Below are positions 8,233-59,725 of a stretch of DNA of 64,000 bases, in pieces. Positions within the stretch are counted from its first letter, which is position 1. Every line of letters starts with the position of its first letter. Under the pieces are notes generated by a model that did not search any database, had not been told where the DNA came from, and was given only the letters and a program-made list of their open reading frames with translations. The stretch comes from Streptomyces sp. TLI_105 (lineage in GTDB: Bacteria > Actinomycetota > Actinomycetes > Streptomycetales > Streptomycetaceae), in NCBI RefSeq assembly GCF_900105415.1, contig NZ_FNSM01000002.1, forward strand, positions 124,001-188,000, in the 5' to 3' direction. The position numbers were made by a program, and so were the translations under genes.

Positions 8233-8236
8233 CTAG

Positions 8237-9176
8237 GGTCTGTTGCGAAAGTGGATCTTGTTCGTTGATGATCACTTGTCGTGGGACGTGGTGATCTGAC
8301 GAACGGCCAGTGGGCCCGGCTTGAGCCCTTGCTGCCGATGGGCATCAAGCCGGGCCGGCCGCAGGTGTGGACGCGGCGGCAGCTGATAGACGGCATACGG
8401 TGGCGGACCCGGACCGGCGCCCCCTGGCGGGACGTGCCCGAACGTTACGGGCCGTGGGACCGGGTCTACGATCTCTTCCGCCGCTGGCAGCGGGATGGGA
8501 CCTGGGCCCGGATCCTCACCCGGCTCCAGGCCGAAGCGGACGCGAAGGGCCTGATCACCTGGGACGTGAACGTCGACTCCACCGTCTGCCGGGCCCACCA
8601 GCACGCCGCCGGGGCTGCGAAAAGGGGGACCTCCAAAAGGAGCCGCCCGGCGGTGTCTTCGTCGAGCCGGCCGACCACGGCCTCGGACGCTCCCGTGGCG
8701 GCCTGACCAGCAAGATCCACCTCGCGGTCGAGCAGGGGCAGAAGCCCCTGTCGGTGGTGATCACGGCCGGGCAGCGCGGCGATTCCCCGCAGTTCGAGCC
8801 GGTCCTGGAGGCGATCCGGGTGCCCCGGGTCGGGCTCGGCAGGCCGCGCAAGCGTCCGGACCGGGTGCGGGCCGACAAGGCGTACGACTCCCGGAGCAAC
8901 CGCTCCTACCTGCGCAGACGCGGAATCAAGGCAACGATTCCGGTGCCTGCGGACCGGGTGCGCAACCGGCTGAAGCGCGGCTCGCGCGGCGGCCGCCCGC
9001 CGAAGTTCAACAAGGACGACTACAAGCAGCGGCACGCGGTCGAGTGCGGGATCAACCGGCTCAAGCGCCACCGGGCCGTCGCCACCCGGTACGACAAACT
9101 CGCCGTCCGCTACGAAGCGACCGTACTGGTCGCAGCCATCAACGAATGGCTGTGACCAGCACTTTCACAACACGCC
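8237..9176 (+). mobile_element. IS5-family (IS427-type) insertion sequence
   Basis: Ends are GGTCTGTTGCGAAAGTG and, inverted, GGCGTGTTGTGAAAGTG, flanked on both sides by CTAG (8233-8236, 9177-9180), the target duplication expected of the IS427 group. About 940 bp, one transposase in two overlapping frames. The element looks complete. Confidence 0.9.
8281..9155 (+). CDS. IS427-type transposase, orfA/orfB by frameshift
   Basis: The first frame (GTG 8281 to 8706) carries the N-terminal DUF4096-like part and the first catalytic Asp in [13 protein letters not shown]. The second frame ends at 9155 and holds the second Asp in VRADKAYDS and the Glu in [13 protein letters not shown], completing DDE. 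The frames meet at AAAAGGGGG (8620-8628), a slippery site suited to a -1 shift, giving the full transposase. Neither frame has other damage, so it may be active. Confidence 0.85.
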
Positions 9177-9410
9177 CTAGTGGAGCACTTCGCCGAGCTG
9201 GTCGAGGTCTTCGGCGCTCGGAGTGTTGCGGCTGTTGACAGCCCGGTTGACTCCGCGCAGCGCGGCCGCGCACACGATGCCAGCTGCTTGAAGCGGGAGG
9301 GGGCCTGCTTCCTCACGGTTGGGCAGGGCAAGGCGTTCAAGGAGTTCTGCTCGTTCGTCGGCAGGCAGGGAACCCAGCAGGTGTCGAGCGAGAGCAGGGA
9401 TGTCGGTCAT
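9177..9410 (-). CDS. short helical hypothetical protein at IS edge
   Basis: 77 residues from ATG 9410 with GAGGGGACC before it. Helical (ALARHLLGSLPADERAELLE, AAGIVCAAALRGVNRAV). The stop TAG is the CTAG duplicated by the IS, and beyond the IS the same frame stays open as AFDSFSSALEIAAV. This may therefore be the N-terminal part of the broken gene at 7588-8232 rather than a complete protein. Confidence 0.5.
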   Translation of the reverse strand: MTDIPALARHLLGSLPADERAELLERLALPNREEAGPLPLQAAGIVCAAALRGVNRAVNSRNTPSAEDLDQLGEVLH

Positions 9411-12794: not shown

Positions 12795-13541
12795 ATGGCG
12801 CCATTGATTCTGTGGCGGAGGCTGGGTTCACCGCTTGTCCGGCGCTTACGCCCTCCCGCCTTCTGGTGGAGGCGCCCTCCAGTGCCCGGATCGCGCCGCT
12901 CCCGGAGACAGCGCGCGGTCGCGGAGCTGAGAGCCCAGGGCCGCTACGGCCCGGAACTGCGTGACGTCGCGCTGCCTTTCGCCGCCCTCGCCCTCGCGGT
13001 AGTGGGGTCGGTCTCCCTCCTCCTCTGGCTGTACCGGACGCTCGGCGTCGGCGGCCTGGTGCTCGGCGTCGCCCTGCTCGCGGCCGTCGCCGTGGTGGGG
13101 AGGCTCTGGCACCGAGCGTCGGTCCGCCGGCGGGGCGGCATCTACACCCCGGCGGAGCTGTCGGTGCTCGGGGAGCACGCCCTGGTCGTGGCCGTCGAGC
13201 GGATGCTGCGCCGTGACGGCTGGCACGTCATCTCCATGCCGGACGAGGGGCGGCCGCGCCTGTACGCGCGCGACCGTGGCGGGCGGCAGCTCGACGTTGC
13301 GTTCCGCCCGGCGGACGAGGCGCCGACGGGTAACGCCCCCGCAGGACCCGCTCCCCTTCGGGAGGTCGGCCGTCCGGGCGTCGACCAGCTGACCCGGGTG
13401 GTCGTAAGTCGCGGGGCGTACAGCCGCACGGATGTCCTGTGGGCCTCCCGGCAGGGTGGGGTGCACCTGGTCGACGGCCGCCAGCTGCAGCGGTGGGCTG
13501 CGGGCATCTCCCTGGAGAACCTGGGCCTGCCCACCCGTTAG
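12795..13541 (+). CDS. membrane protein with Mrr/restriction-like domain
   Basis: 248 residues. An Arg/Pro-rich N-terminus is followed by two membrane helices (about 58-77 and 82-103) and a cytoplasmic domain. That domain has the outline of PD-(D/E)xK Mrr folds: VVAVERMLRRDGWHV, then DRGGRQLDVAFRP with the D-x(n)-D/E core strand, and a closing VDQLTRVVVSRGAYSRTDVL and VHLVDGRQLQRW. The canonical E/QxK triad is not clear (QLDV instead), so nuclease activity is doubtful. Could act in DNA quality control at the membrane. Confidence 0.65.
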   Translation: MAPLILWRRLGSPLVRRLRPPAFWWRRPPVPGSRRSRRQRAVAELRAQGRYGPELRDVALPFAALALAVVGSVSLLLWLYRTLGVGGLVLGVALLAAVAVVGRLWHRASVRRRGGIYTPAELSVLGEHALVVAVERMLRRDGWHVISMPDEGRPRLYARDRGGRQLDVAFRPADEAPTGNAPAGPAPLREVGRPGVDQLTRVVVSRGAYSRTDVLWASRQGGVHLVDGRQLQRWAAGISLENLGLPTR

Positions 13542-13632
13542 GGGACATGTGAGTCATCCTGGAGGCAGCGCTTCTGGAGCGGTTCGGAGGCGAACAACGG
13601 TGGTTTAGACCCCTGCTGGTGGGTATCCTGCT

Positions 13633-13783
13633 GGTGCGCGAGTCGGATGCTCGCGCACCTGCAGAGGAGCTGAGGGATACGGCCCTGTGAAGCTCCGGCA
13701 ACCCCCTGCCATTGCCATCAGCTGGTGATGTGATGTTGGAGGTGCCAATTCCGTCTCGCGGCGACAGCCGCTGCGAGGTGTGC
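13633..13783 (+). promoter_or_regulatory. SAM-I type riboswitch with RBS-sequestering P1
   Basis: The core matches the S-box consensus in order: GAGCT (13667) pairing AGCTC (13691), GAGGGA (13672), GGCCC (13681), CCGGCAACC (13695-13703), GGTGCCAATTCC (13741-13752). P1 can form between GCGCACCT (13653-13660) and AGGTGTGC (13776-13783), covering the ribosome site GAGGTG (13775-13780) of the ATG at 13787. An upstream hairpin GGTGCGCGAG/CTCGCGCACC (13633-13659) uses the same bases as the 5' arm of P1, so the two folds exclude each other. Predicted: SAM bound, P1 formed, translation off. Confidence 0.8.
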
Positions 13784-13786
13784 CTT

Positions 13787-14068
13787 ATGGCAACGGATGG
13801 TGCCTTCACGATGCTTCAAGACATCTTCTCGTGGATCTCGTCTCGCACGATCATTCCCCTGTGCCTGGTGTTGTGCGCCCTCGTGGGCATGGTGCCGCTG
13901 CTGATTGTCACCGTGGGCCTGCTGCCTGCCTGGATGACGTGGCCATGGATGGCTGATCACAAGCAGAGGAACACGTTGTCGCTGATCAAGGCGCTAGCGA
14001 CGTGGTCGAATGGTCTACTCGCGAAGGCAGCCCAGGGTTTCACTGGCCGAAGGTCTTCAACCCAGTAA
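13787..14068 (+). CDS. small membrane protein under SAM riboswitch
   Basis: 93 residues from ATG 13787; an earlier in-frame ATG at 13712 lies inside the riboswitch core. Two hydrophobic segments, about 20-50 (IIPLCLVLCALVGMVPLLIV and GLLPAWMTWPWM), followed by a basic helical tail (DHKQRNTLSLIKALATWSNG). Not a known methionine or SAM biosynthesis enzyme. By analogy with other S-box genes it could transport methionine or a related compound, or be a subunit of such a transporter, but it is short for that. Two hairpins follow its stop. Confidence 0.75.
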   Translation: MATDGAFTMLQDIFSWISSRTIIPLCLVLCALVGMVPLLIVTVGLLPAWMTWPWMADHKQRNTLSLIKALATWSNGLLAKAAQGFTGRRSSTQ

Positions 14069-14123
14069 GTGGAGATAGGCCCCCTCACCCCTCACGGCCT
14101 GCGGCGTGCCCTGCCGCGCGGGG

Positions 14124-14154
14124 CCGGGTAACAGTCCCGGCGACTGTTACCCGG
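14124..14154. terminator. terminator hairpin
   Basis: CCGGGTAACAGTC and GACTGTTACCCGG form a perfect 13-bp stem with a 5-nt loop, 55 bp after the stop of the riboswitch-controlled gene. Confidence 0.7.
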
Positions 14155-14179
14155 TCTGAGCTGCGGAGATTATAGAAAC

Positions 14180-14200
14180 GGGCCCTCGTCTGAGGGCCCG
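14180..14200. terminator. bidirectional terminator
   Basis: CGGGCCCTC/GAGGGCCCG, a 9-bp stem with a 3-nt loop, flanked by AAA and TTCC, between two convergent genes. Confidence 0.7.
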
Positions 14201-14220
14201 TTCCTGCTGTGCGGTGGCCG

Positions 14221-14236
14221 GTCGCCAATTGGCGAC
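14221..14236. promoter_or_regulatory. 16-bp palindrome, left copy
   Basis: GTCGCCAATTGGCGAC is a perfect palindrome that recurs exactly at 15079-15094, so the two copies bracket the DNA-binding protein gene at 14245-14958. Two exact copies within 900 bp are very unlikely by chance. Probable protein-binding site. Confidence 0.6.
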
Positions 14237-14244
14237 CGCGGCGG

Positions 14245-14958
14245 TCAGCTGCTGTCGGCCTGGGCGCGGAGTTGGGCAATGCGCGCGCGGACCTCTGCAG
14301 CCTGTTCGGCGGCCTTGGGGTTTCCGTCTTCGGCAGCGATGCGCTCCAGCAAGCTGGCCTTGCGCTCGTAGACGGCGGCTCGTTCCGCGGGACCGGTCGT
14401 CGGCTGAAGGTGTTCGATCGCGTCGAGAACCTGCACCATCTCCTCCGCTGTCGACAGGGGGGAGAGGTGGCCGCTCACGGGGTGGGGGTCGTCGCGGTAG
14501 CCGGGCAGGTGGGCCCGTGCCCACTCGTCCAACTGGCGGCCCGTCTGCGTCGGCTGGTAGGCGGCCTCATGAATGCGCAGTGCGCGGTACCCACCGTCCG
14601 GTGCGGGATAGAACGGCTCCACCAGGGAGAGCTGCCACTCCTCCACGGCCTCCTTGTAACGCTCGTGGGCCGACTGGCGGGTGATGCCACCCAACCGTTC
14701 CCCGATCTCCTCCCAGCTCGTGCCCTTCTGCCGTTCGTGGATCACGGCCCAGCGGAGCACTCCCTGGGCGAGCTCGACCAGGGTCTGCGCCTCTTCGACC
14801 ATCTCGCCTCCCCGGACGAACGCGTCATCGGTGGGGACGCCGGCGGCAGCTCGCTCGGCAAGGTCTCTCTGCTCGTGGGAGAGAACGAGTCGGCTCAGGG
14901 CCCGGCGGCTGTAGGCGTACCGGTCGGTGGAGGCGTCGTGTGCCACCTCATCACTCAT
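14245..14958 (-). CDS. HTH DNA-binding protein with own operators
   Basis: 237 residues. The centre holds a helix-turn-helix (TSWEEIGERLGGITRQSAHE) matching the segment VTWSRIATALELKSRQAAER of the gene at 43812, so the two are members of one family. The C-terminus is helical (ERAAVYERKASLLERIAAE). Palindromes directly at the start codon (14961-15007) and 16-bp palindromes on both sides suggest autoregulation or a partition-like role. Such proteins are common on Streptomyces plasmids and integrative elements; function not established. Confidence 0.7.
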   Translation of the reverse strand: MSDEVAHDASTDRYAYSRRALSRLVLSHEQRDLAERAAAGVPTDDAFVRGGEMVEEAQTLVELAQGVLRWAVIHERQKGTSWEEIGERLGGITRQSAHERYKEAVEEWQLSLVEPFYPAPDGGYRALRIHEAAYQPTQTGRQLDEWARAHLPGYRDDPHPVSGHLSPLSTAEEMVQVLDAIEHLQPTTGPAERAAVYERKASLLERIAAEDGNPKAAEQAAEVRARIAQLRAQADSS

Positions 14959-20568: not shown

Positions 20569-20779
20569 GGAACTTGACCAGAACCACCTGGAGCCGCCCG
20601 TCGATCAGGCGGCCACCCCCTTATGTCGTCCCGTCCCAGGTCAGGCCTCGTATGGATGGAGAGATCCATCGAGCAGGTGTGGGGCACCCCAGAACAGGGG
20701 GTGGGGATTTTCAAGGTTCTGTCCGCAGTTCCGTGAACGATCTCTCAGAGGCCGTCAGGCGGATCGATAGGATCGCGGC

Positions 20780-21298
20780 ATGATGGGAGATCCCGTGGTC
20801 GCGCTGCCAGAGGCTGAGTACCGACGTGTATGGGATCGCTTCTACAAGCATTTCAGCTTCCAGCCAAGTATGAGTCCGCTCAAGTGGCCGGCCATCGAGG
20901 AGCCCGTCGCGTCGGTGACCTGGAGCCTCGCTGCGCTTGACAGCGATCCGGATGACGAGCGTCTGGATCGCTTGGTCGCCGTCGTCGAGCAAGGACTGTC
21001 CTCCTGCGCTGGCCCGTCAGGCACTCTGTTCGCCCTCGACTGGCAGCACACGTCGTACCGCTTCGCACCGCAAGAGGTGGGCGGTCCTGGGCAGCTGGCT
21101 TGGCCGTTGAGCCCGTATCCCGACGGCGACTACTTCATCTTCCTTGCGGAGGACTTCCGCTTCGGCAGCTTCGGACACCCCTGGGAAGAGTCTCTCTGCC
21201 TGTTCGGTGAGGAACTTCTCAACGTCGCGGCCACGGAGGTCGACAAGGTTCTTGGCCCGCCGATCCGCAGGTCAGGCAAGGTGGTGGGCCCGGCCTGA
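20780..21298 (+). CDS. DUF2716-like passenger protein in ISL3 element
   Basis: 172 residues. The pattern VWDRFYKHFSFQPSMSP, PSGTLFALDWQHTSYRF, YFIFLAEDFRFGSFGHPWE and SLCLFGEELL matches what I know of DUF2716, a small soluble family of unknown function. It lies between the left inverted repeat and the 3' end of the transposase, 14 bp from the latter. Its function for the element (immunity, regulation, cargo) is unknown. Confidence 0.75.
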   Translation: MMGDPVVALPEAEYRRVWDRFYKHFSFQPSMSPLKWPAIEEPVASVTWSLAALDSDPDDERLDRLVAVVEQGLSSCAGPSGTLFALDWQHTSYRFAPQEVGGPGQLAWPLSPYPDGDYFIFLAEDFRFGSFGHPWEESLCLFGEELLNVAATEVDKVLGPPIRRSGKVVGPA

Positions 21299-21311
21299 GC
21301 CTGGACCGGGC

Positions 21312-22902
21312 TCAGGGTCTCGCGAGAATGCGTGCCCGCAGCAGAGCGAATGTCGCGCGTCCGTACATGCTCCTCTTCAGCAGTTTCACGCGGCAGACGT
21401 GACCTTCGACGACGCCTGAGCTGTAGGGCAGGGTCAGGCCGGCCGTCACCGCGTCGAAGTCCTGCCGCAGAAAGCTGCCGAACGATCGGAGGGGCCCGAT
21501 CGTGGATTGCTCGGCCTCTCGGATCCACAGACCGAGCATCGTCCCGCGGCGGTGCCGCACCAGATCGGTGAAGGCACGCGCGAGATTGCATGCCGCGGTG
21601 ATGTCGGGGCATGCGATTCGGACCTCGTCAAGGCGAGCGACCTCGCTGGTTGACAGACTTTCTCTGGGGCGCATGATCCACGCCGTGATCGAGCGAGGGC
21701 TGGGAATCTGGGCCGGCGCTGCGGCAGCCACTCCGTTACGGAGAGACAGAACGTAGCGAGACAGGGTTGAGTACCCTCCCTGGAACCCCTGCGCACAAAT
21801 CTGGTCGTACAGCTCCTTCGCGCTGGTCACCCCCGATGCGAACTGGGCCTGAAGGAAAGGCTTGTATCGATCCAGGGGGACATTGCGTCGGTCGCGGGCG
21901 GACGCGATCAGAACGTCGAGCTCGGTGTCGCGATAGCGCCGGGCGGTCTTGCGGTCCAGGCCGACCCTGCGGGCCACCTCGCTCAGCGGGTAGCCGCTGT
22001 CGAGCATGCGGTTGATGAGTTCGTGTCGCTGCTGAACGCGTTGCACGATCAACGTGGGAGGCAGTGCCTCCAGCAGGGGCATGCTAGGTAGCGGGGAAGG
22101 TGCCTGCTCGGCGTATTTCCGCAGGCAGGACCGGTGCTGCTGGCAGGTCTTCTCGACCGCTTGCGACAGATTCCGCAGCAAGTGCCAGCGGTCCGCAACC
22201 TCCACTGCGTGCGGAGCCGCTTCCTTGATCGCTCGCGTGTAAGCACTGGCTCTGTCCCGGCAGACGATCTCCACTCCAGGATGGGCGACGAGCCAGGACA
22301 CGAGCGTCTCAGACGTGCGATCGGGAAGAACATCGACGGGACAACGCTTTTCCACGTCGACGAGGATCGTGCCGTAAGCACGTCCCCGCCTGAAGGCGAA
22401 CTCGTCCACGCCCAGAATGCGCGGTGCCCGTTGTGCGACGGGTGGAGCATGAAGGAGTTGCAGCAGCCGCATTCTCCCCGCTGGCACACCCATCTTCCGG
22501 CACAACCTGGATCCGGGGCGCCCTCCGAGATCGGTCGCGATGGCATGCAACAGCTGCCGCAACCCCGTGCTGGCCTGGCGGTATCGCTCACTGATCCCGG
22601 CGATCTGCTCCACGAACGTACGCCGCACACATCCGGTGTTGTCACAGAAGAACCGGCGAACCGTCAGCAGAATGACCGTCGACCGACCGGCCGGCAACAG
22701 GGCGATCAGAAATCCTCCGCTCGTACCGGCTGTGGACACGCTTCGACGAAACGCCGCAGGCGGAGCACGAGTGGAGCGGTGTCCGACTGAACGCTCGAAC
22801 TACGACGAGGCAGTCGTCGGCCGTGAAGCCTTCCACTGCAACGCCGTCGATGCCTGGGTACAGCAGCTCTTCGATCGATCGCTCAGTAGCCCCCACCACC
22901 AA
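21312..22902 (-). pseudogene. ISL3-family transposase, frameshifted
   Basis: The N-terminal frame (from 22902) has the ISL3 zinc-finger CSACGVSSKRVHSRYERRIS and runs to RPVAGRS. The rest lies in another frame as TVILLTVRRFFCDNTGC, then ILGVDEFAFRRG (first Asp), VEVADRWHLLRNL (second) and SSGVVEGHVCRVKLLKRSMYGRA (Glu), to 21312. The break is a 4-bp tandem duplication (GACC GACC on the forward strand near 22682); removing one copy restores AGRSTVILL in one frame. About 530 codons before the damage. Confidence 0.85.
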
Positions 22903-23150
22903 GAGCTGCCCTGAAGGAACGATCCTCCATCCAAGGCAGCCGAACCCCGTTCACGGAACTGCGGACAGAACCATTTTCAAGGAGCCCTATCAGTGTCCGG
23001 CGACGCTGGGGAAGCTCCTGCTCTCCGCAGGCGTTGGACGCGCGTTGAGAGGTCCGGGGCAACGTTGGTGAGGCGTTGCCCCGGGGGCTCTTTGTGGTAG
23101 TCGGCGGAGCCGCCAGCGCCCGAGGTCTTTGGGGTCTTCATACCAGGGAC

Positions 23151-51424: not shown

Positions 51425-51652
51425 ATCCGCTCCGGTCAGGCGATGGGTGAGACAGCCTGTGACTGTCCATATTGCTGGAGAGCCAAAGGTGTTGCCGGGC
51501 GGTACGTGCCGCCCGGTTGGGCGGCACGTGATCCCCACGGCGGTGGGGCTGAAGGCCAGAATCTATGAACTCTTGGCCTATCTCCGGCTGGACCGGAGGT
51601 GAGAAACGATAGCGGCAGGAACGTTCGCTCGAGGCTGTGTCCTTGTGGGGAC
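51425..51652 (-). promoter_or_regulatory. expected leader position of array 1
   Basis: Between the degenerate end of array 1 and the stop of cas3. No gene seen. It contains GGTACGTGCCGCCC/GGGCGGCACGTGATC-type inverted sequence (51510-51533) that could end cas3 transcription. It is not AT-rich, so a functional leader is doubtful. Confidence 0.3.
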
Positions 51653-54601
51653 TCACCTGGACAGTCCAGTGGACGGGTGGAGGGTCAGGCCGAGGGGGCC
51701 GCTGATACAGGTGCCATCGGCGGGGTCGAACAGGGCGACGTTCATATATTTGAGCGCGGGTGCGGGGTGTACCGGCCATGTCTCGGGGGCGGGCAGGGAC
51801 GTCTTCTGTCGGGTGAACCAGTGTGCTGGGATGGCCAGGGTGTTGAGGAGCAAGTCTTTTTGCTGTTGCTTGCGGGCGGGGCTGTCGGGGGTGTGGCGTG
51901 CGAGGTCGGCTCGGAGGGTGCCTTCCTGGTCGTACGTGAGGGTTCCGTCGGTCTGGCGGTAAAGGGCTACGGCTTCGATCGACGGGTCACCGAGCCGGGA
52001 GACGGCCCTAATCCCTTCGATGCCATCGTCGTCGCCGTCTCCGTGGGCGTCGCCGGAGACGAGGCCGCTGACGGGTGTCGGCTTTCCTTTGCGGGTGAAG
52101 GGCTTGAGCGCGCGGATGTCGCACTGGGCCTGTTCGTCGGCGAGTTGGCTCTGCCAGCTCGCCCATGTCCGGTCGAGGATCTCGCCGAGGGCTCCGTCTG
52201 CCATCTGGCGGGGGCCGTAGACGGCTTCGATCAGGTCGGTGGTGTGGGTGGGTGTGACGATGCGGACAGTGCCGTCGGCACGGGTCCGCAGTTTCAGGGC
52301 ATGCCAGGAGGCGATGAGGGTGTACGGGGCGTAGACGTATCCGTCGAGGTTGCCGGTGGGCCGGCCTTCCTTCGGATTCGGGGGTTCGACGAGCGGGAGG
52401 CCGTCGGGACCTTCCTGGAGAAGGAGGGTCATGCGGGCTTTGTGGGCCCAAGAGGGCCGGTAGGGGTCGTTCACGGTGTGGCGGTGCTGGCGGCCTCGGC
52501 GCTGGATGAGGAGGTCGATCGGTGCGAGGTCGGTGTAAATGCGGTCGAAGTCAATGTCGAGGCTCTGTTCGACGACCTGGGTGGCGATGACGAGGAAACG
52601 GTGTGGCCGGTTGGGGTTGGGGCGTTGGGGGTCTTCGTCCGGGCCGAGGAGGTTCTTGAGGCGTTCCTCGACGGGGAGACGGAAGCGCGGGAGGGTGCGT
52701 CCGTGGAGCAGGATGATGTTGTCGGGTCGCCAGCCGTTCGCGGCCGCGCGCCGCAGGGCAGTGGTGTAGAGCTCGACGGCGCTGTCGACGCGGTTGCGCA
52801 GCACCAGGGTGATGCCGGCGCCGGCGGCCTCCTGCATGACGTGGTCGGCCAGTTCCTGGGCACCTGGGTCGGGGAGGAAGGCGATGCGGGTGCGGAGTTT
52901 GGGCATCTTGATGCCGCTGCCGGTGCGGGTAATGGAGCCGTGTTCGTCGACGATGGTGATCGGGCCGGTCTGGCCCGCGTCCGAAGGGGCGGTGCGGTGG
53001 CCCGCGCACCACGCGTCGGTGAGTGCTGTGCGGGCGGCGGCGGGCAGGGTGGCGGAAAGGACGACGACGGAGGATCCGGCGTCGGCGAGCCACCGCAGGA
53101 CGGCCGCGAGAAGGCCTTGCTGGTAGAGCTCGTAGGCGTGGGCCTCGTCGATGATGACGGTCTTGGTGGCCAGGCCGAGGAAGCGCAGCATCCAGTGGCG
53201 GCTGGGCAGAGCAGCGAGGACGACCTGATCGACGGTCCCGACGGCGAACTGGGCGATCAGCCCGAGGCAGCGCCGGAGGTACCAGGGGCTGAGCACGGCG
53301 TGGGACGTGGCAGGGCTGGTACCTGGTCCGGTGTCAGGGGTGGTGATGAAGTCCTCGAGGCTGTCGAGTGCGGCTTGTCCTGGTGCGCGTCCGGCGTCGA
53401 GGAGGTCGTGGACGAAGTCGGTGGCCTGGGCAGTGGAGTGGACGACTGCGAGCATCGCGGAGTCCTGGCTGTTCAGGGCGTGCTGCATGAATCGGGCGGT
53501 CTCGCGCGCGGCCTGGTTGGTGGCGGCTCTGGTCGGCATGGCCAGGTAGAGGCCTTGGTATCCGCAGGTCACGGCCAGGTGGTGGGCGCAGGCGAGGGCG
53601 AGGCGGGTTTTTCCTGAGCCGGTGTCGGATTCGATGATGATCAGGGCGGGGCCGGTTGCGGGAAGGGCGGCCATGGCGGCGGTCTGGAAGCTGCGGGGGA
53701 TGGTTCCCGGGTAGAGGGCTTCCCAGGTGGTGGGTTTGGCCTGCCAGGCGTCCAGGCCCAGAGCGTCTGTGGCTGTGCGGGCTTGAGTGAGGGAGGTCTG
53801 CCACCAGGTCGTCGTGCTGTCGGAGAGGTTGCGGTAGGTGAAGCGGGTGTCGTCCGAGGCGATCCAGTCGGCAAGGATCACCAGGCCGGCGAAGATCGGG
53901 AGCACGGCGGGGCGTTCGGGCCGTACGAGGAGCGGCAGGGTGGTGAGGTCGGCGCCGATCAGCGCGGCGGCCTCCTCGACGAGTTCGGTGTAGATGGGCA
54001 GCCACAGGCCGGTGTCGGCGGCCATGGGGGCGCGCTCGACGGTTGCGTGGCTGGGAATGTGCCCGTGGTGTCCTCCGAGGAGGTTTGCAACGTCGTGCAG
54101 GCCTGTGTGGCAGGGGCCTGTGCCTCCGCAGTTCTCGCCCGGGCAGCCGAGGAGGCGGGGCAGGTGGAAGGCGGTGATGTGCTCGTGGCGTACGGAGGGC
54201 TCGGCGTCGAGGCGGTCGGCGAGGGGCAGGCCGGCGGCGCGGGCCTGCTTCTCCCAGGTGGTACGCGCCTGGCGCAGGTAGGCGCCGTCCCAGGGATTTT
54301 GACCGAACTGGCGCAGGAAGCAGCTTGATCCCTTGCCAAGGTCGTGCAGGCCGGCCAGCAGCATCACGATCGTCCTGGCAGTGACGGGGTCTTTTTCTGC
54401 GAAGGCTTCGGTCAGCCGGGCCCTGATGGTGGGGGGCAGGTACCGGTCCCACAACTGGCCGACGACGGCCGCGACGTCGAGGACGTGTGCGAGCAGCGAG
54501 TTCCAGGCGGGGCCGCCCATTCGGCGGCTGGTTCCTCGCTGATCGGTCTTTGCCCAGATGAACTGATGAGGCCTCAGGAAATTTTCCTGACTTTGAGTCA
54601 C
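51653..54601 (-). CDS. cas3: CRISPR-associated nuclease/helicase Cas3 (type I-E)
   Basis: 982 residues from GTG 54601 with AAGGAGAAC before it; a longer frame to 54790 runs across the promoter region. HD nuclease: H39, H86-D87 in LLAGLHDLGKG, EHITAFHL, GGHHGHIP and ILADWIASDD. Helicase: ESDTGSGKTRLAL (K330), VIIDEAHAY (484-487), VVLSATLPA, LVIATQVVEQSLDIDFD, IQRRGRQHRH. All catalytic motifs of Cas3 are present. It degrades the DNA opened by Cascade. Divergent from the Cascade operon. Confidence 0.95.
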   Translation of the reverse strand: MTQSQENFLRPHQFIWAKTDQRGTSRRMGGPAWNSLLAHVLDVAAVVGQLWDRYLPPTIRARLTEAFAEKDPVTARTIVMLLAGLHDLGKGSSCFLRQFGQNPWDGAYLRQARTTWEKQARAAGLPLADRLDAEPSVRHEHITAFHLPRLLGCPGENCGGTGPCHTGLHDVANLLGGHHGHIPSHATVERAPMAADTGLWLPIYTELVEEAAALIGADLTTLPLLVRPERPAVLPIFAGLVILADWIASDDTRFTYRNLSDSTTTWWQTSLTQARTATDALGLDAWQAKPTTWEALYPGTIPRSFQTAAMAALPATGPALIIIESDTGSGKTRLALACAHHLAVTCGYQGLYLAMPTRAATNQAARETARFMQHALNSQDSAMLAVVHSTAQATDFVHDLLDAGRAPGQAALDSLEDFITTPDTGPGTSPATSHAVLSPWYLRRCLGLIAQFAVGTVDQVVLAALPSRHWMLRFLGLATKTVIIDEAHAYELYQQGLLAAVLRWLADAGSSVVVLSATLPAAARTALTDAWCAGHRTAPSDAGQTGPITIVDEHGSITRTGSGIKMPKLRTRIAFLPDPGAQELADHVMQEAAGAGITLVLRNRVDSAVELYTTALRRAAANGWRPDNIILLHGRTLPRFRLPVEERLKNLLGPDEDPQRPNPNRPHRFLVIATQVVEQSLDIDFDRIYTDLAPIDLLIQRRGRQHRHTVNDPYRPSWAHKARMTLLLQEGPDGLPLVEPPNPKEGRPTGNLDGYVYAPYTLIASWHALKLRTRADGTVRIVTPTHTTDLIEAVYGPRQMADGALGEILDRTWASWQSQLADEQAQCDIRALKPFTRKGKPTPVSGLVSGDAHGDGDDDGIEGIRAVSRLGDPSIEAVALYRQTDGTLTYDQEGTLRADLARHTPDSPARKQQQKDLLLNTLAIPAHWFTRQKTSLPAPETWPVHPAPALKYMNVALFDPADGTCISGPLGLTLHPSTGLSR

Positions 54602-54701
54602 GAGGGTTCTCCTTCCTGTAATGTCTCGCGCCGTCAGCCTCAGCCGAACAGAGTGCATAGGTTCGGAAGCTTTCCGACCTCCATGAAAGAGGGCAGACAC
54701 C
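54602..54701. promoter_or_regulatory. divergent cas3/casA promoter region
   Basis: 100 bp between divergent starts. Contains TCGGAA-GCT-TTCCGA (54663-54677), an inverted repeat that could bind a regulator of both units, and GAGGG before casA. Confidence 0.5.
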
Positions 54702-56254
54702 ATGCGGTGGGAACCGCGCGTCCAAGCATGCATCCCGACACTGACAACGGGCTCTGACCAGCAAGAACTCAAGCTGAACCTGCCTGACACCTTCCGGCGG
54801 GCCGATGAGATCAGCGCTGTCTACGGTGACAGCCCCGGCGAGACAGCCGCAGTGATCGAGTGGCTGCTCGGCCTGATCTACGCAGCCGACGCCTATCCCG
54901 AGACCACCGACGAGTGGAAGCAGTATGTGGAGAACCGCGCCCCACTCGACGAGGTCGCCGCCTGGATCGAGAAGCATCCGGGCTGCTGGGACCTGTTCGA
55001 CTCCGAACAGCCCCTCGGACAGAACCCCGCCCTACACCCGCACCTCGACACGTACGGCGTCGGACCCGCCCAGCTCTTCGTCGAACGGGTCGGGGACTAT
55101 AACCAGTTCTTCGACCACCACCACCTGCACCACCCCGAACCCGTCCCGGCCGACGCTGCATGGCGCGCCATGCTGGTCCAGCACGCCTTCGCCATCGGCA
55201 TGCGCGGCAGGATCAAAGCCAGCGCCATGGGACTGCCCGGCACCTTCACCAACCTCGGGACGAACCGGCTGGCCTCACGGCTGCGGGTCATCGCCCGCCC
55301 GGCCTGGGACGGAGCGACCCTCGGCGATCTTCTGCGCCTCAACACCACTCCCTGGCCGCGCGACCCCGGCCCCCTCAACCTGACATGGCGCCAGGAGCTG
55401 CCGCAGCGCCGTGATTTCACCCAGCCCGGCCCCCGGCAGGCGCGTACCCCTCAGGGGCCTGCGGATCTGCACACCGTCCTGGGCCGCTCCATCGCCCTGC
55501 GGCCGGCCCTTCTTGCGGACGGAACCGCCGGAGTCGACAGGGTCCTCATCGGCGCCGGCGAGACCCTGGCCCCGCTGCCGGCCGAGTACCTGCAGGACGC
55601 CGTCACCCACACGGGCCCAGGTGGCGTCAAGCGCCTTCTGGGACCCTCCGCCAACCGTGACCTGTGGCGCGAGTCCGAAGCCTTGTATGCCGCCGTCGCC
55701 GACCGGGACAAGGGCACCGACCTCTACGGGCGGATCGCGACACTCCACGGCCGCCGCATCCACCTGTGGACCGTCGGCCTCCTGGCCACCCAGGGCAAGC
55801 CGATCACCTGGGTCACCGACGAGTTCCCCTACGTACCTGGCCGCGAAGCACCCCTCCGGCACGCAGCCGAAACAGGCTCAGCCATCTGCGAGTACGCAGC
55901 CCGCGCCCTCTACCTCGCCGCGTCCACCGCCCGCGACATCGCCTACCCCAACCCCAAACCGGACGACAAGAAGGCCCAGATCGCCCGCTTCAACGGCGAA
56001 CCCGAGATGTGGGCGGGTGCCGCGGACCACTTCCACGTCCTGCTCGACCAGGTCACCGCTGGCCAGGACACCACCGGCGCTCTCGACGAGTTCGGAAGCG
56101 CCATCCGGGCCTTGAGCATCCAGAGCCTGAACGACCGTCTCATCAGCCTTTCCGGCGGCACCACCGGTCTCGAGGCCCGCGTCACGGCCCAGAGCCGCCT
56201 GGAGAAGCTGCTCGATCACAGCAAAGCGCCCGTCCACCTCAAGGAAGCCGCCGC

Positions 56255-56258
<4 letters not shown>
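54702..56258 (+). CDS. casA: Cascade large subunit Cse1/Cas8e
   Basis: 518 residues from ATG. Family features: IYGDSPGE-type N-terminal segment (ISAVYGDSPGETAAVIEWLL), FDSEQPLGQNPAL, VERVGDYNQFFDHHH, a TFTNLGTNRLASRLRVIARP region, WxGR-like LWTVGLLATQGKPITWV and the C-terminal four-helix bundle (LDEFGSAIRALSIQSL). Recognises the PAM and recruits Cas3. Overlaps casB by 4 nt. Confidence 0.92.

Positions 56259-59725
<3,467 letters not shown>

Follow-up and report, generated by a model that had tools for sequence, protein, structure and literature searches.

A SAM-I leader whose P1 helix holds the Shine-Dalgarno sequence of a small membrane protein gene in Streptomyces: a candidate translational OFF switch with a predicted anti-aptamer strand in the coding sequence

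The closest described relatives of the leader discussed here are other SAM-I (S-box) riboswitches. The conserved bases of J1/2, the kink-turn, P3 and J3/4 are listed in the cited part of PMC3764141, which also places A6, U7, A87 and U88 among the highly conserved bases of P1. In Streptomyces, the Table 3 rows of a 2021 paper put the Rfam family RF00162 before threonine biosynthesis genes of S. lividans (PMC8079986); for threonine, these rows contradict the cited portion of a 2005 survey of Actinobacteria, according to which threonine and methionine operons have no conserved RNA structure upstream (PMC1262725). A precedent for a translational SAM-I switch is SAM-IXcc of X. campestris, described in the cited sections of PMC7270179 as acting mainly on translation; its Shine-Dalgarno sequence (SD) looks closed without SAM, yet section 7 reports that it is ON without SAM in cells. 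Plasmid-borne SAM-I in Streptomyces was the subject of none of the open-access titles and abstract openings among the matches listed.

We surveyed the genus for other S-boxes—RF00162 was present in 390 of the 392 Streptomyces genomes sampled. Thirty-one leaders were examined (L001-L033 without L002 and L003); in 24 of them the printed ORF resembles what we take to be threonine synthase, and in the other seven a longer out-of-frame ORF was printed. A second type of S-box (L002/L047 and L069-L077) precedes a short conserved ORF with a GTG start in 10 of the 392 genomes, including the one studied here, under strict search filters; in seven of these ten, an IclR-type regulator ORF was printed after the GTG ORF. 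Additionally, two S-box-like matches below the cut-off (L078, 43.2 bits; L079, 29.5 bits) lie upstream of a short Cys-containing ORF that is presumably a leader peptide. The other assignable S-boxes of the genus precede threonine synthase or an IclR-type regulator; here we describe one that travels with a small membrane protein.

Identity of the leader and the unit it forms with its gene

The window is the whole 64,000-nucleotide stretch analysed, positions 124001-188000 of a 289,318-base contig of Streptomyces sp. TLI_105 (C2; NZ_FNSM01000002.1); the other contig of this genome measures 8.59 Mb. The outer 5 kb of the two C2 ends, compared as a sign of a linear plasmid, show no similarity. Several other elements were observed along the window: IS5-type and ISL3-type transposase matches shared with Streptomyces plasmids (8233-9181 and 20700-22980), direct repeats of about 150 bases that are open on both strands and also match one place in locus L046 (17789-18304), and a Type I-E CRISPR-Cas gene set that is 91.6% identical over 8.2 kb to a plasmid of Streptomyces sp. 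WAC00288 (about 51500-59710).

A covariance-model search of the window matched RF00162 on the plus strand over the full model (1-108) with 52.8 bits, where the curated cut-off is 44.4 bits (E = 2.6e-9 over the whole window, 4.1e-11 over 1 kb), which bears out the SAM-I type S-box that an earlier note on this DNA had called. This match and one tRNA are the only Rfam matches at gathering level, and by Rfam it is the only riboswitch in the window. The features of the locus are as follows.

13591-14049, plus strand: unit common to three loci by blastn (upstream block, S-box leader and gene)
13600-13632, plus strand: conserved block GTGGTTTAGACCC..., candidate promoter or operator, conserved in all three loci
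13633-13659, plus strand: P0 hairpin, arms GGTGCGCGAG (13633-13642) and CTCGCGCACC (13650-13659), 10/10 pairs
13653-13660, plus strand: P1 5' strand GCGCACCU, pairing with 13776-13783 (8/8 standard pairs)
13654-13782, plus strand: SAM-I (S-box) aptamer
13738-13754, plus strand: aptamer 3' core strand (3' side of P3, J3/4), predicted to pair with 13793-13807
13755-13777, plus strand: extended P4 hairpin, arms 13755-13763 and 13769-13777, which can take up GAG of the SD
13775-13780, plus strand: SD GAGGTG, read directly, six bases before the ATG
13776-13783, plus strand: P1 3' strand AGGUGUGC, containing AGGTG of the SD
13781-13792, plus strand: small hairpin of the window MFE with the start codon in and beside its loop, stem 13781-13784/13789-13792
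13787-14068, plus strand: gene for a 93-aa membrane protein of a family without a name, ATG at 13787, stop at 14066-14068
13793-13807, plus strand: predicted anti-aptamer strand, codons 3-7, complementary to the aptamer 3' core

Searching a set of 5.8 billion proteins returned three close homologues with 81-90% identity, from S. mutabilis, Streptomyces sp. R44 and a plasmid of Actinacidiphila glaucinigra; the DNA-level comparison covers the window, G346 (taken as Streptomyces sp. R44) and Actinacidiphila. The expectation set beforehand in the earlier note, that homologues would also follow S-boxes, agrees with what both relatives show: RF00162 lies directly upstream of the gene (57.2 and 49.6 bits), so that all three gene-bearing loci exceed the cut-off over model positions 1-108. 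In all three leaders AGAGG, GAGGGA...UGAAG, GGCAACC and GGUGCCAA are legible as the conserved bases of J1/2, the kink-turn, P3 and J3/4. Membership of the window leader in SAM-I is secure; that it binds SAM is a prediction.

P1 is the part that departs from the family. In the Rfam alignment, with numbering from PMC3764141 whose transfer to the window S-box is inferred, the window keeps U7-A87 (as U60-A76) and replaces A6-U88 by C59-G77; Actinacidiphila does the opposite, with A6-U88 retained and a C-G pair at U7-A87, and in G346 the conserved pairs are ambiguous, the covariance model having put P1 elsewhere. The CAUC/GAUG consensus of P1 is found in all 32 other S-boxes compared (31 controls plus L002) and is missing from the window; the P1 ends of those 32 read CATCC (5') and GATGAG (3'), where the window reads CGCACCTGC and GCGAGGTGTG. 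The departure is likely due to the double duty of P1, which must also serve as SD, and it may come at the cost of weaker or altered ligand binding.

Leader and gene are inherited together. By blastn, the window matches the 20 kb around L042 at 13591-14039 only, and the 20 kb around L046 at 13600-14049, the remaining matches being short and elsewhere in the window. Homology stops with the leader and gene, and the flanks are unrelated in the stretches compared. The carriers are one plasmid, the 289-kb second contig of the genome studied here, and one chromosome end; the G346 gene sits 22 kb from its contig end. Finding the switch and the gene together at two other places with unrelated surroundings suggests what may be a portable SAM-responsive module.

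The gene itself is real—pairwise dN/dS among close homologues is 0.075-0.165, which places the reading frame under selection. As the earlier note held, it is no known methionine or SAM gene: neither Pfam nor NCBIfam matches the protein at E up to 1, its best PHROG match has E 0.48, and none of 33 aligned family members matches NCBIfam at 0.01, so that Pfam, NCBIfam and PHROGs offer no known family. A phage origin was rejected, the leader and gene having no match in the phage collection and the protein none in viral contigs. Five of 392 Streptomyces genomes matched in a single-sequence search at E 1e-6, two of them closely (the genome studied here and G346); at E 1e-8, one of 391 genomes of the order matched, again the genome studied here. 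Two scans of the genome contig collection, which may leave out records near this genome, gave no further close homologues.

A wider family was reached through an alignment search, which found at least 126 proteins (the best 7994 candidates being scored) and members in 21 of 199 Streptomyces genomes. They carry a PAWLTWPF-like motif within a core like LPLL...PAWLTWPF...LxxW(T/S), and most of the distant members aligned lack the N-terminal extension of the window group. No SAM-I was seen within about 1.5 kb either side of the distant relatives at 22 distinct loci (9- and 20-locus sets combined, L106 outside the scan). At 5 of 23 loci (L088, L089, L091, L092, L096), distant members adjoin an ORF that we take to encode an XRE-like coiled-coil protein, the widest partner found, and at 2 of 23 (L094, L101) they stand beside a presumably terminase-like ORF; such neighbours hint at mobile-element biology. 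The one structure model made of the window protein has a long helix at 3-51 and another at 58-90 (mean pLDDT 69.7, pTM 0.30), a confidence too low to support a fold search; we infer one membrane-spanning helix and another lying within or alongside the membrane, perhaps as an accessory subunit. The small transporter or regulator put forward in the earlier note is a guess; ours would be an accessory subunit in the membrane, produced when SAM is low.

Predicted folds of the leader and of the gene start

The earlier note had placed the SD in P1 and the control at translation. Five of the six bases of GAGGTG do lie inside the P1 3' strand, and only three bases separate P1 from the ATG, which leaves no space for a terminator. 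With no terminator-like site in 13500-14250, transcription termination is ruled out, and control at the level of translation is very likely. The same interval holds no sigma-70-type promoter consensus. In folding energy the RNA 13630-13795 beats all 200 of its dinucleotide shuffles (z -3.7); the other two leaders reach z -1.9 (4/200 as good) and z -3.3 (0/200).

The upstream 10-bp hairpin of the earlier note, P0, pairs as described and has seven bases (13653-13659) in common with the P1 5' strand. The built-in P0/P1 switch drawn from this overlap stands in the window but fades in the relatives: in G346 the overlap shrinks to three bases (ACC) of a 5-bp P1, and in Actinacidiphila, P0 stops three bases short of the CACC that pairs in P1, so that the overlap is lost. 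P1 pairing is also much shorter in the relatives (CACC/GGUG in Actinacidiphila, ACCUU/AGGGU in G346). The ligand-free MFE fold of every leader has a hairpin at the P0 position; its inner CGCGAG arms are invariant across leaders, and its outer part in Actinacidiphila is CAU/AUG with a bulge. Hairpins analogous to the one at 13781-13792 are predicted around the other two start codons. The extended P4 pairs at 9/9 positions in all three sequences, G-U counted; the ligand-free MFE folds include it for the window and for Actinacidiphila, and in shortened form for G346.

Absent from the earlier note is a complementarity of 15 bp between the aptamer 3' core and codons 3-7. Standard pairs form at 15, 14 and 14 of the 15 positions in the three sequences, the helix is present in the ligand-free MFE to +40 of all three leaders, and in each no other part of the gene complements the core as well as its start does. 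The duplex of core and gene start has -22.9, -25.3 and -23.2 kcal/mol in the three leaders; in the 31 control leaders (the same L001-L033 without L002 and L003, with starts set by a first-ATG rule that in L005 clearly gives no start) it averages -12.9 kcal/mol and is at best -19.9 kcal/mol, and the start is the best place in none. An equally good partner for the three cores is offered by 19, 35 and 199, respectively, of 18,280 24-mers sampled across the window in both orientations. Third-position changes affect 0 of 9 early degenerate codons (first 10 compared) versus 32 of 60 later ones (Fisher p 0.0027; five cut-offs were tried, with p from 0.002 to 0.02). Synonymous recoding is a weak test here, as 208, 421 and 387 of 2000 recodings (10-21%) pair as well as the native sequence; this is because GGUGCC of the core is itself nearly self-complementary. 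Codons 3-7 are nearly invariant, and therefore the helix has no covariation across the three sequences. On these counts, the anti-aptamer strand in the coding sequence is a well-supported prediction.

The P0 hairpin and P2 are kept in all ligand-free MFE folds. At +40, the extended P4 of the window and that of Actinacidiphila take up GAG of the SD, and that of G346 mostly GA; at +10, ACCCUC on the 5' side of P3 is the partner of the G346 SD, and the MFE of Actinacidiphila already contains P1. The SD within P1, as the earlier note had it, is borne out, but the ligand-free folds do not simply free the SD. Forcing P1 leaves at most one of the six SD bases unpaired in every leader, and so the SAM-bound state should be OFF. 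In a nearest-neighbour model, which counts no tertiary contacts, the price of forcing P1 is 14.7, 0.0 and 10.6 kcal/mol when the RNA stops at +10, and 16.2, 6.0 and 22.0 kcal/mol when it stops at +40 (window, Actinacidiphila and G346, respectively). At cellular SAM a SAM-I aptamer pays perhaps 6 kcal/mol, as estimated from affinities; set against this sum, only the Actinacidiphila leader could plausibly switch by thermodynamics alone. The window switch would have to act during transcription, or else tertiary energy is missing from the model. For G346, the modelled fold lacks P3 even with P1 forced.

Direction and use of the switch

We favour, with somewhat better than an even chance, a translational SAM-I OFF switch with a coding-sequence anti-aptamer, through which the small membrane protein would be made at low SAM. 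With SAM plentiful, the aptamer would close, and ribosomes would be kept off by P1, the 3' strand of which serves as SD. With SAM scarce, P1 would be released, P0 could take up part of the P1 5' strand in two of the three leaders, and codons 3-7 would capture the aptamer 3' core; the aptamer would then re-form only after a ribosome opens the region. Leader and gene travel as one unit between streptomycete replicons. SAM repression of the gene is likely; for the direction of switching and the role of the coding-sequence helix, we infer from the folding models. SAM-I at all three loci, the SD within P1, the conserved unit, the dN/dS values, the helix in all three leaders with its lead over the controls, the unchanged third positions of the early codons and the precedent of SAM-IXcc count for the OFF switch. 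Counting against it are a P1 cost above what SAM would probably pay at equilibrium in two of three leaders, the ligand-free P1 of Actinacidiphila at +10, the unformed P3 of G346, an SD of which half is shut even in the ligand-free folds, and the much shorter P1 of the relatives; the nearly invariant codons, the recodings that do equally well and the sample of only three sequences likewise weigh against it.

The closed appearance of the ligand-free RNA could be read the other way—codons 3-7 locked, the SD partly in P4, the start codon in a hairpin, and SAM acting as the signal that frees the start region. In accordance with such an ON switch, the mean unpaired probability of the 21 bases after the start codon, at +40, is 0.08, 0.14 and 0.08 ligand-free and rises to 0.35, 0.34 and 0.35 with P1 forced. 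We consider it improbable: at least five of the SD bases pair in all three leaders once P1 forms, the SAM-I members known to us are all OFF switches, and the SD of SAM-IXcc is closed without SAM as well and yet, in the cited sections, the switch is ON without SAM in cells (PMC7270179). It is also unlikely, if not dismissible, that the S-box has decayed, having been copied from another leader and kept as a structured 5' UTR that no longer usefully binds SAM. Decay would fit scores of 50-57 bits against the 66.9 and 68.6 bits of the pair of S-boxes on the 8.59-Mb contig, the absence of a P1 consensus that all others compared keep, the variation of P1 pairing among the three leaders, and the P3 of the G346 model; it fits poorly with the preservation of the conserved J1/2, kink-turn, P3 and J3/4 bases in every leader next to a P3 loop that has changed in both length and sequence, and with the unrelated DNA outside the unit.

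P0 may also be viewed as DNA, that is, as a 10-bp inverted repeat serving as operator for a repressor, with the S-box working through P1 alone. The repeat directly follows the conserved block, a possible promoter, its inner arms are invariant, and in Actinacidiphila it stays clear of the P1-pairing bases; however, the bulged outer pairs of Actinacidiphila fit an RNA helix, a weak objection since a palindrome keeps symmetry too. We rate the operator as very unlikely. To return to the OFF switch, an elaboration by analogy with SAM-IXcc to which we give only a slim chance is a mobile AND gate, in which codons 3-7 would hold the aptamer open and the start shut, low SAM plus a ribosome or a second signal (e.g., uncharged initiator tRNA) would be needed, and the plasmid-carried unit would read the methylation state of its host.

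Comparison with known systems

If SAM binding holds, the 93-aa protein is assigned to SAM-linked physiology, be it transport, methylation or development. If the pairing of codons 3-7 with the core is true, it is an expression platform inside a coding sequence and worth seeking in other translational riboswitches. Compared with RF00162 as a family, the window is alike in its full-length match, its P1-P4 order and its conserved core; it differs in having C59-G77 for one conserved A-U pair, in a P1 3' strand that is the SD, and in a gene that is no known Met, Cys or SAM gene. The usual Streptomyces S-box precedes what we take to be threonine synthase, whereas the window S-box is followed by the 93-aa membrane protein, which makes it part of another regulon. 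These threonine leaders are of the same family but keep CATCC/GATGAG in P1, have their start 13-19 bases past the aptamer end (12 loci with a printed ORF beginning there) where the window has 5, and have coding starts that pair less with the core. On the protein side, the unnamed family of small membrane proteins in Streptomycetaceae shares the core motif, while its distant members have no SAM-I nearby at the 22 loci scanned.

Among translational riboswitches, SAM-IXcc is similar in that, according to the cited sections of PMC7270179, it acts mainly on translation and its SD, as in the window, is still paired in the SAM-free model. In contrast, the SD of SAM-IXcc sits in an expression-platform hairpin opened by uncharged tRNA-fMet, and that of the window in P1 itself. 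The E. coli btuB cobalamin riboswitch has another ligand and aptamer, and the cited part of PMC11162775 describes its coding element as a putative attenuator rather than as an anti-aptamer strand; it is like the window in being translational and in having a regulatory element within the first part of the coding region.
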